A stretch of DNA of 41,285 bases from Thermomicrobium sp. (lineage in GTDB: Bacteria; Chloroflexota; Chloroflexia; Thermomicrobiales; Thermomicrobiaceae): contig JANXBE010000006.1 of the NCBI GenBank assembly GCA_025060175.1, positions 1 through 41,285 of the forward strand. The letters run 5' to 3'. Positions 15,713-18,404 of the stretch are shown in pieces. Position 1 is the stretch's first letter. Every line of letters begins with the position of its first letter. The translations under genes and the position numbers were made by a program. Below the pieces are notes generated by a model. It did not search any database. It saw only the letters and a list, made by a program, of their open reading frames with translations, and had not been told where the DNA came from.

Positions 15713-16735
15713 TCAGACGAGGACCGGCTCCTCAGCCAGGGCCGCCAGCAGACGCACTCGACGGACGATTTCAGCGAGCGTGGCGGGATCGATCGACTGC
15801 CGACCGTCCACTAGAGCGTCCTCTGGTTGGACATGGACTTCGATCAGCAGTCCATGCGCCCCCGCAGCGATCGCCGCCAGCGACATCGGCGGCACCAGTT
15901 CCCGCAGTCCCGTCCCGTGGCTCGGGTCGACGATCACTGGCAAGTGACTGCGTTGACGGACCAGCGGAACCGCGTTCAGATCCAGCATGAAGCGGGTCGC
16001 CGGCTCGAAACCGCGTACGCCCCGTTCACAGAGGACCACTCGATCGTTCCCGCTGGCGAGGAGATACTCCGCCGCGAGCAACCACTCCTCGACAGTGGCC
16101 GCGAACCCACGCTTCAGAAGCACCGGTTTGCCAGTGGCCGCCACCTTCCGCAACAAGGCGAAGTTCATCATGTTTCTGCTGCCGATCTGGAGCATATCGG
16201 CGTACTGTGCGACCAGGTCGATGTGGTCAGTATCCAAGACCTCGGTCACGACCGGCAAACCGGTCCGCTCCCGCGCCTCCGCGAGCAACTCCAAGCCGCG
16301 CTCCCCGAGCCCGTGGAAACTGTACGGGGACGTCCGCGGCTTGAACGCGCCGCCCCGCAGCAGCGAGGCTCCTGCCTCCCGCACCGCTTCCGCCGTCCGC
16401 AGCAACTGGTCACGGCTTTCCACGGTACACGGTCCTGCGATGACCACCGGCTCGCGCTCACCGATCCGCACCGAACCGACCTGCACGACCGTGCCTTCCG
16501 GTCGACTCGCCCGAGCCGCCAACCGGTACGGCTCCGATGGCGTGACGACCTCCTCCACCACGCCGGTGCGCATGAATCGACCGACGAACGCATCGGGTAC
16601 CGCTCGCCCGTTCACCGCGATGATCGCCGGTCCGCCGGATGTCAGAACCGTCACCTCGAACCCGGCGCGCTGCAACTCGTCGAGCAGTGCTTGCCGATGG
16701 TGCGGTTCGGTATCGGCTCGCAGCCGGAGAATCAT
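15713..16735 (-). CDS. aroF: 3-deoxy-7-phosphoheptulonate (DAHP) synthase
   Basis: A 340-residue enzyme condensing phosphoenolpyruvate and erythrose 4-phosphate, the first step of the shikimate pathway. Residues 1-about 70 form a ferredoxin-like domain as in the Thermotoga maritima enzyme, where it mediates feedback inhibition by Phe/Tyr. The barrel follows with [11 protein letters not shown] (metal Cys103), [37 protein letters not shown] and [12 protein letters not shown] 16735 follows GGAGG by 9-10 bases. The gene is preceded by a leader ORF rich in aromatic codons and an intrinsic terminator, so it is probably attenuated by aromatic amino acid supply. Its stop is 1 base from that of the convergent kinase-fold gene. 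Confidence 0.95.
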
Positions 16736-16765: not shown

Positions 16766-16805
16766 CCATAAAACGAAGCGAGCAGAGGCATTTTCCTCTG
16801 CTCGC
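16766..16805 (-). terminator. Attenuator (intrinsic terminator) before aroF
   Basis: On the minus strand, 16805-16778 reads GCGAGCAGAGG, loop AAAATG, CCTCTGCTCGC: a perfect 11-bp stem. It is followed immediately by TTCGTTTTAT (16777-16768), a U-rich tract. It lies between the leader ORF stop and the aroF ribosome site, so it would stop transcription before the structural gene. Its 5' edge (16803-16805) is shared with the alternative antiterminator stem. Confidence 0.88.
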
Positions 16806-16877
16806 CGGCGCCACTGGCGTTTTTCGGGCTACGGGGTCAGCGCTTCAACACCCAGCGCCCCGCCAGCGACGCCGGCG
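16803..16877 (-). promoter_or_regulatory. Antiterminator pairing in the aroF leader
   Basis: Minus-strand 16877-16861 (C then GCCGGCGTCGCTGGCG) is complementary along 17 bases, with two G-U pairs, to 16819-16803 (CGCCAGTGGCGCCGGC then G). Forming this stem uses the first three bases of the terminator stem. The competing fold pairs 16916-16905 (CGCTTCAGCACC) with 16852-16841 (GGTGTTGAAGCG), 12 bp with one G-U, and encloses a CCCGCC/GGCGGG hairpin (16879-16874 with 16864-16859), which sequesters the 5' antiterminator arm. The aromatic codons sit between the two, so a stalled ribosome would favour antitermination. Confidence 0.7.
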
Positions 16878-16929
16878 GGCTAAAGTAGTACGCGAACCAA
16901 ACTTGGTGCTGAAGCGACAGCCTACCCAT
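16837..16929 (-). CDS. Leader peptide with aromatic run, upstream of aroF
   Basis: A 30-residue ORF (ATG to TGA) starting M-G-R-L-S-L-Q-H-Q-V, continuing W-F-A-Y-Y-F at residues 11-16, then S-P-P-A-S-L and ending G-R-W-V-L-K-R. Five of six residues in the core are aromatic, with Trp, Phe and Tyr all represented, and Trp occurs again at 26. The ORF ends 32 bases before the terminator stem. It starts only about 4-6 bases from the predicted transcription start, with no room for a Shine-Dalgarno site, so it is probably translated as a leaderless message. Role inferred: sensor of charged aromatic tRNAs controlling aroF transcription. Confidence 0.82.
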   Translation of the reverse strand: MGRLSLQHQVWFAYYFSPPASLAGRWVLKR

Positions 16930-16939
16930 AGCACTGCTC

Positions 16940-16968
16940 ACTATAGCGCTGTTCCCTGGCGCTGTCAA
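16940..16968 (-). promoter_or_regulatory. Sigma-70-type promoter of the aroF leader
   Basis: On the minus strand, TTGACA (16968-16963, perfect -35) is followed by 17 bases and TATAGT (16945-16940, five of six matches to -10). The start point is predicted near 16933-16935. This is the best promoter in the window. Confidence 0.88.
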
Positions 16969-17288: not shown

Positions 17289-18404
17289 TCAATCGAAGAC
17301 GAGGACGCCGCGCAGCAACCGTCCCTCCTCGAGATCGATGAACGCCTGATCGATCTCGTCCAGTCGGTAGCGCCGCGTGACGAGTTCGTCGAGCTTGAGC
17401 TTGCCCTCCCGGTACAGGCCCAGGAGCCGCGGGATGTCGATCCGCGGTACGTTGTGACCGAAAATGGTGCCGACGATCTCCTTGGCTAGAAGCATGAAGT
17501 CGACGGGTGTGATGTTCATCCGTTCCATCCGTCGATCGGACGCTCCCACGATGACCGTGCGACCCGCCTTCCGTGTCGCCCGCACCGCGGTTCCGATCAC
17601 CTCGGCAGTGACCAGCGCGACGGTCAAGATGGTCGCGTCGGCCCCGACGCCGTGCGTGATCTCCATGATCCGCTGCACCGGATCCTCCCGAGTGGGATTG
17701 ATGGTGTGCGTCGCGCCGAACTCCGTCGCCTTTTCCAGCTTCCAGTCCACCAGGTCGATCGCGATCACCTTCTCCGCCCCGGCCATGGCCGCTCCCTGCA
17801 CCGCGTTCATCCCCACCCCGCCGGTGCCGAAGATGGCGACCGTCTCCCCGGGGCGGACGCGGGCGCGGTTAACGGCGGCGCCCCAGCCGGTCGGCACAGC
17901 GCAGCCGACCAGACAGGCGCGATCGAGGGGTAGATCCGGATCGATCTTGATGACCGAGTCGACCGGGCAGACGGTGTACTCGCTGAAGGCGGACACTAAC
18001 GCGAACTGCGCAACGTCCTCTCCCCGCTGGTTGTGCATGCGGAAGGTCCCATCGAGTTGCGTTCCCTGCCCGATCAGGATGCCGCGGTCGCAGATCGCGG
18101 CCAGACCGCTGAGGCACCAGCGGCACTTGCCGCAGGCGGGGATGTAGCAGAGGACGACGTGGTCGCCCGGTGCGAGGTCGGTGACCCCTGGCCCGACCTT
18201 CTCGACGATACCGGCCCCTTCGTGGCCGACGACCATCGGGTAGCGCACGGGTGCTTCGCCCTTAGCGAAATGCCAGTCGGAGTGGCAGAGCCCGGTCGCG
18301 ACCAACTTGACCAGCACTTCGCCGTCTTTCGGCTCGTCCAGTTCCAGCTCTTCGATCGTGAAGGAGCGGGTGGGGCCGTACAGTACCGCTGCACGGGTCT
18401 TCAT
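17289..18404 (-). CDS. Zinc-dependent alcohol dehydrogenase, NDMA-dependent-like
   Basis: A 371-residue medium-chain dehydrogenase. Catalytic zinc ligands are Cys40 (A-T-G-L-C-H-S-D-W-H), His61-Glu62 (V-V-G-H-E-G-A-G) and Cys168 (L-V-G-C-A-V-P-T-G-W-G). Structural zinc ligands are Cys91, 94, 97 and 105. The NAD-binding loop is G-T-G-G-V-G at 193-198, followed by A-I-D-L for NAD preference. Blocks such as A-F-S-E-Y-T-V and G-A-A-V-N-R-A-R-V-R-P-G-E-T-V resemble the NDMA-dependent (tightly bound cofactor) subfamily, which oxidises alcohols or formaldehyde in actinobacteria and relatives; the substrate is unknown. ATG 18404 follows AGGATGG. A promoter and a 12-base palindrome lie upstream. Confidence 0.88.
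   Translation of the reverse strand: MKTRAAVLYGPTRSFTIEELELDEPKDGEVLVKLVATGLCHSDWHFAKGEAPVRYPMVVGHEGAGIVEKVGPGVTDLAPGDHVVLCYIPACGKCRWCLSGLAAICDRGILIGQGTQLDGTFRMHNQRGEDVAQFALVSAFSEYTVCPVDSVIKIDPDLPLDRACLVGCAVPTGWGAAVNRARVRPGETVAIFGTGGVGMNAVQGAAMAGAEKVIAIDLVDWKLEKATEFGATHTINPTREDPVQRIMEITHGVGADATILTVALVTAEVIGTAVRATRKAGRTVIVGASDRRMERMNITPVDFMLLAKEIVGTIFGHNVPRIDIPRLLGLYREGKLKLDELVTRRYRLDEIDQAFIDLEEGRLLRGVLVFD

Follow-up and report, generated by a model that had tools for sequence, protein, structure and literature searches.

The best-known examples of ribosome-mediated attenuation come from proteobacteria and some Actinobacteria. In the trp and pheA leaders of Escherichia coli, stalling of the ribosome at codons for the end product selects an antiterminator over a terminator; each of these leaders responds to a single amino acid, is led by a Shine-Dalgarno site and contains one segment that is extensively shared by two hairpins. 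The ilvGMEDA and thr leaders also read several amino acids. The leader preceding aroF in Thermomicrobium, which is analysed here, has the stalling principle in common with trp and pheA, but differs in containing codons for several amino acids, in probably being leaderless and in having hairpins that barely overlap.

When compared through their published descriptions, the closest precedents appear to be the aroR-aroF and ilvBNC leaders of Corynebacterium glutamicum. The aroR-aroF leader (Neshat et al. 2014, as described in PMC11802643 and PMC4046766) resembles the present locus in having an aromatic-codon leader peptide ahead of a DAHP synthase gene and ribosome-mediated attenuation, while its Phe-Tyr-Phe codons are reported to respond to Phe and not to Tyr. 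It differs in phylum and in reading Phe-Tyr-Phe rather than WFAYYF. The first-pass annotation had set the joint sensing of Trp, Phe and Tyr apart from leaders that read one amino acid; the codons are indeed there, but the sensing of several amino acids has precedent, the Phe-Tyr-Phe of aroR being an example. The ilvBNC leader and the ilvB-II motif also comprise an anti-antiterminator, an antiterminator and a terminator, with a leader peptide reportedly lacking a ribosome-binding site (PMC11857589, PMC10272879). In ilvBNC, the antiterminator and terminator share three bases at the base of the terminator, an arrangement supported by mutations (PMC11857589), which implies that a minimal overlap can work. 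This system serves branched-chain amino acids and an ilvB gene, whereas in the Chloroflexota the overlap reaches zero in many relatives. A further motif, uORFC-13-1, precedes aroF in Acholeplasma; it likewise combines a short ORF containing Phe codons with a nearby terminator, and a possible promoter lies inside the motif; however, it is confined to Acholeplasma and environmental sequences, with no Trp/Tyr cluster described and no regulation shown (PMC8632094).

One survey took ribosome-mediated attenuators to have arisen in the gammaproteobacteria and to have undergone few transfers (PMC3766115). In the open-access literature, no amino-acid attenuators of this sort were found described in Chloroflexota, in agreement with the first-pass annotation, which had known of no example from such bacteria. 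The attenuator at this locus thus belongs to a known mechanistic kind, while the phylum-wide Chloroflexota family to which it belongs is apparently undescribed. A family extending over much of this phylum, thermophiles included, would make attenuation far more widespread. Some of its members are extremely compact, with peptides of 8-11 codons whose start lies no more than about a dozen bases from the promoter; the hairpins that abut without overlapping are natural variants for testing what an antiterminator must do to a terminator, and in thermophiles the leader offers a genetic handle on the supply of aromatic amino acids.

The aroF leader and its alternative folds

The window, meaning the whole stretch of 41,285 nucleotides that was analysed, comes from a MAG that is 54% complete. 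On its minus strand, the elements follow one another in the order promoter, leader ORF, terminator, U-rich tail, Shine-Dalgarno-like site and aroF start codon (Table 1). The promoter scores 11/12, and shuffling the 2-kb region yields an average of 0.2 such sites. Judged from the sequence, transcription should start around 16934-16929, at the leader ATG or slightly upstream of it. The 9-10 nt that separate the -10 box from this ATG leave too little room for an ordinary Shine-Dalgarno site; this points naturally to leaderless translation, and the peptide is probably translated from a leaderless mRNA. The aroF product scores 448 bits against NF006421 (cutoff 335) and 384 bits against TIGR01361 (cutoff 268); its ATG, at 16735, is preceded by the Shine-Dalgarno-like AGGGAGG at 16750-16744. 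Upstream of the leader (17289-18404, minus strand) lies a gene for an NDMA-dependent alcohol dehydrogenase (TIGR03989, 541 bits), which has no apparent link to the aromatic pathway.

Table 1. Features of the aroF leader in the window, with related leaders elsewhere in the phylum
Feature	Position	Strand	Basis
Sigma-70-type promoter: TTGACA 16968-16963, 17 nt, TATAGT 16945-16940	16940-16968	-	Sequence; 17-nt spacing kept in 19/19 family sequences
Leader peptide ORF MGRLSLQHQVWFAYYFSPPASLAGRWVLKR, 30 codons + TGA; ATG at 16929, TGA 16839-16837	16837-16929	-	Conserved in 19/19 family sequences
Sensor codons W11 F12 A13 Y14 Y15 F16	16882-16899	-	W conserved in 19/19; W/F/Y clusters before DAHPS phylum-wide
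OFF (anti-antiterminator) hairpin	16828-16932	-	Predicted by folding; encloses sensor codons, pairs start codon
Inner B:B' hairpin of OFF state, 16879-16871 : 16867-16859	16859-16879	-	Mutually exclusive with B:C
ON (antiterminator) stem B:C, 16877-16861 : 16819-16803, 16-17 bp	16803-16877	-	Folding; covariation
Intrinsic terminator, stem 16806-16795 : 16788-16777, U-rich tail to 16770	16770-16806	-	Sequence; kept in 19/19
aroF, DAHP (3-deoxy-7-phosphoheptulonate) synthase type I beta, the regulated gene	15713-16735	-	Profile matches
Relatives before pheS, tyrS, lysC and type-I-alpha DAHPS (other Chloroflexota)	L159-L162, L183, L196, L264, L176, L177, L180, L182, L221, L247		

Two competing structures are obtained by folding. 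In the OFF hairpin, GCUAUGGG (16932-16925) pairs with CCCGUAGC (16835-16828) and a middle helix joins 16916-16905 to 16852-16841. When the leader is folded without C, the 5'-most GCUAUGGG pairs with CCCGUAGC beyond the stop codon; this burial of the start codon suggests that the OFF state may also block the loading of a second ribosome. In the ON state, the B:C stem of the window has 17 bp counting G-U, and the last bases of C overlap the bottom pairs of the terminator. Relative to dinucleotide shuffles, the z-score is -5.93 for B:C with the terminator and -2.97 for the OFF hairpin. The two states are close in energy, and according to the folding OFF is able to form before C has been made. When the window leader is folded naked, its minimum-energy structure already has B:C, which implies that OFF must be favoured kinetically.

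Much of this layout had been recognised in the first-pass annotation: the near-consensus promoter with a 17-base spacer, the 30-codon ORF with W-F-A-Y-Y-F at codons 11-16, the second pairing, of 17 bp with G-U, and the terminator with its U-rich tail before aroF are all present. Its first pairing, the 12-bp helix with one G-U that contains CCCGCC/GGCGGG, also exists, but constitutes only the middle of the longer hairpin that takes in the start codon.

Conservation within the Thermomicrobiaceae

An orthologue of this aroF is present in 19 of 21 family genomes, that is, by 18 besides the window's own, and all 19 are preceded by the complete leader of promoter, aromatic peptide, stems and terminator. 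Both the 17-nt promoter spacer and the position of the promoter upstream of the terminator are kept in 19/19; the -10 box and the ATG are 9-10 nt apart in 18/19, the exception (L092) having 18 nt and a purine-rich stretch. Conservation of the peptide and stems in related genomes had been set beforehand as a test, and a transcription start downstream of the terminator named as the refuting case; what was found is retention of both in 19/19, with compensatory changes, and a promoter ahead of the terminator every time. Within the cluster the W is invariant, the remainder reading WFAYYF (F16 replaced by Cys in L083), WFGYYF or, in other genera, a W with Y, F and V codons after it.

Covariation is evident in both folds. 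Across the 19 sequences, 96% of B:C cells are paired and three pairs show changes on both sides; the pairing is lost when the partner is shifted by 1-3 bases. One such compensatory change, from U-A to C-G, is found in the window; between genera, a C-G to U-A replacement coincides with an Ala-to-Val change in the peptide. B:C and the terminator together contain 18 both-side-changed cells, compared with 6.3 in shuffles (0/500). The OFF stems are 99.5% paired, with 13 both-side-changed cells compared with 4.8 in shuffles (0/500); for the middle helix alone (12 sequences) the pairing is 99.3%, and four pairs have changed on both sides. The inner B:B' hairpin is 100% paired in the family, its sole change being G-C to G-U. 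Other genera have a comparably long OFF pairing made of different letters, such as AUGAAUG with CAUUCAU. The second DAHP synthase copy, about 55% identical, closely follows a gene resembling chorismate mutase, and no such leader precedes it in the loci examined.

Relatives elsewhere in the Chloroflexota

A covariance model built from the 19 family leaders was run on Chloroflexota and Actinomycetota genomes. Matches were obtained in 52/158 genomes of the class, 110/400 Chloroflexota genomes and 1/296 Actinomycetota genomes. DAHP synthase I-beta is the downstream gene in 86 of 110 matched regions examined, one of which (L206) has tyrA between the leader and DAHPS; the other 24, for which gene identities were confirmed on representatives, comprise 8 asd, 5 DAHP synthase I-alpha, 5 pheS, 2 tyrS, 1 lysC, 2 contig ends and 1 spurious region. 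A match at LigA (L261) lacks B:C and was taken as chance. The codons track the gene, being aromatic before DAHPS and tyrS, Thr-rich before asd, and ITTM before lysC. The pheS leaders are less clear: they keep the PPALPVG part and contain His codons, with one Phe close to B. Triple sensing is not universal, since Trp is absent from many compact DAHPS leaders in other parts of the phylum. Ten of 40 DAHPS genes in genomes without a model match also have an aromatic-codon leader and terminator, mostly of other sequence; no such leader was found at Chloroflexus-type aroF genes.

Short promoter-to-start distances are not limited to the Thermomicrobiaceae. Among 71 leaders with a recognised -10 box, 64 have their start codon 6-13 nt downstream of it, although the script selected the closest candidate start and so favoured short distances. 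In very compact leaders of 8-12 codons (L204, L233, L243, L268 and similar; for example MSHFYFYDSPA and MTRFYWFTDPA), the ORF begins 9-13 nt past the -10 box and the stop codon falls inside the antiterminator arm. The stop lies inside B (..PA*) in much of the phylum and beyond B in the Thermomicrobiaceae.

A second attenuator of the same style occurs in the window's genome (L271, contig C13, around 33988, plus strand), before asd (aspartate-semialdehyde dehydrogenase). Its leader is the Thr-rich MRTRTTTTATRWVGVRSASP, and it shares the GCAGAGG/CCTCTGC terminator of the aroF leader. With each palindrome counted once, a search of five genomes located nine copies of GCAGAGG-N(3-8)-CCTCTGC, each of them upstream of aroF, pheS or asd. 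Since every occurrence sits at an attenuator, the possibility that this is a common genomic terminator was rejected, and the sequence is better regarded as a mark of the family.

The single Actinomycetota match (L278) precedes a DAHP synthase-like (I-alpha) gene and has FYYRFAP codons; it is possibly convergent or transferred. Some Actinobacteria aroF genes (L076 Nocardioides, L064 Frankiaceae) have upstream short ORFs with TYFFGY and RWFSYF, together with a terminator, and are unmatched by the Chloroflexota model.

Proposed switch and competing readings

At this locus, a promoter precedes a short ORF that contains codons for the end products of the regulated pathway, an intrinsic terminator separates this ORF from the gene, and there are two conserved alternative stems, the ribosome-dependent choice between them being modelled or inferred. 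Covariation in both folds, combined with the conserved peptide, makes stalling attenuation the best explanation, and the compensatory changes in both competing stems uphold the first-pass annotation's proposal of this mechanism. The aroF leader is thus very probably a ribosome-mediated transcription attenuator set by the supply of charged tRNA-Trp, tRNA-Phe and tRNA-Tyr. Translation would begin on the leaderless mRNA. When aromatic amino acids are plentiful, the ribosome would run through, allowing the OFF hairpin to form and hide B and the start codon, and RNA polymerase would halt at the terminator. With any of Trp, Phe or Tyr in short supply, the ribosome would stall at codons 11-15 and cover the OFF 5' arm, leaving B free to capture C on its emergence, and aroF would be transcribed. 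Where the stop lies inside B, as in much of the phylum, the finishing ribosome would itself cover B; in the Thermomicrobiaceae, where the ORF runs past B, the OFF stem would cover it instead. In both stop arrangements, B would remain largely free when the ribosome stalls at the aromatic codons, which is the main argument that B:C represents the ON state.

The strong conservation of the peptide in the family, which extends to the PP following the aromatic cluster, could instead reflect nascent-peptide arrest of the TnaC type, in which WFAYYF-S/T-PPALL would itself stall the ribosome when bound to a free aromatic amino acid. This is highly improbable, because the residues after F16 lie in B, B' and the OFF 3' arm, such that RNA pairing explains their conservation, and the change from A to V follows B:C pairing. 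Across the phylum, the peptide is not conserved independently of RNA pairing: the post-aromatic residues vary (SPPA, RRPA, SGGTT, SCGM, TRPAR) while B:C is kept, and the relatives before asd have Thr codons instead. The concerted change of gene and codon identity also argues against the ORF being incidental to a metabolite riboswitch or protein-binding leader, as the long, stable and conserved 5' structure before a biosynthetic gene might otherwise suggest. Such a leader would not account for the conserved ORF, with its promoter-to-ATG spacing and in-frame aromatic codons, and no Rfam family, whether Trp_leader, a riboswitch or another, reaches its gathering score in the window or in ten representative loci; this reading is hardly credible.

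How B:C would block termination is the least certain part of the stalling attenuator. The first-pass annotation had expected the second pairing to disrupt the base of the terminator. In the window, B:C does contest the bottom 2-3 terminator pairs, next to the U-tract, and would take them, but a 9-bp stem stays paired when both form. Partition functions have this inner stem formed at every ribosome position tested, and equilibrium competition for bases was therefore rejected as a sufficient cause; the three-base overlap, earlier singled out as a weak point, is indeed one. Competition for bases is, on this modelling, not the whole mechanism of the switch, and antitermination would rest on kinetics or on a predicted steric effect. 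Duplex searches had suggested that the sensor codons might pair with the terminator 5' arm, but at 112 loci this pairing did not surpass that with permuted arms (mean rank 0.51, p = 0.79), and this candidate was discarded.

In many relatives, the base overlap between B:C and the terminator falls to zero. At the 112 loci with a real B:C helix, the gap to the terminator is 0 in 78 and 0-4 nt in 109, counts that are to be read in the light of minimum-energy folding tending to fill small gaps and of a search model that favours closeness. Model bias as the source of this abutting geometry was rejected, because 7/10 of the leaders found without the model still have gaps of 0-3 nt, with both helices complete. 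In the relatives with zero overlap, it is proposed that a helix flush with the terminator base could not share the RNA exit channel with the terminator. That the Chloroflexota have phylum-wide attenuators on leaderless mRNAs, in which a flush, non-overlapping helix excludes the terminator from the exit channel, is put forward tentatively and judged rather less likely than not.

As B:C and the terminator can co-form and abut end to end, the sign of the switch might also be reversed, with B:C promoting termination by stacking on the terminator. Aromatic stalling favours B:C in both stop arrangements, and such a switch would turn aroF off when its products are scarce; furthermore, mutations support the equivalent stem of C. 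glutamicum ilvBNC as an antiterminator (PMC11857589). A reversed switch is consequently judged very unlikely. For the antiterminator reading of B:C, the sensor codons may not contribute equally: modelled stalling at F16 frees the terminator base, and the F16 codon therefore may not signal.

One feature of the family leaders concerns codon choice. The codon at 16884-16882, directly before the S/T-P-P motif, is TTT in 16/19 of them, although TTT is rare in the genes of the window (10 TTT vs 96 TTC); this preference might reflect a slow codon or an unpaired U-rich spacer.
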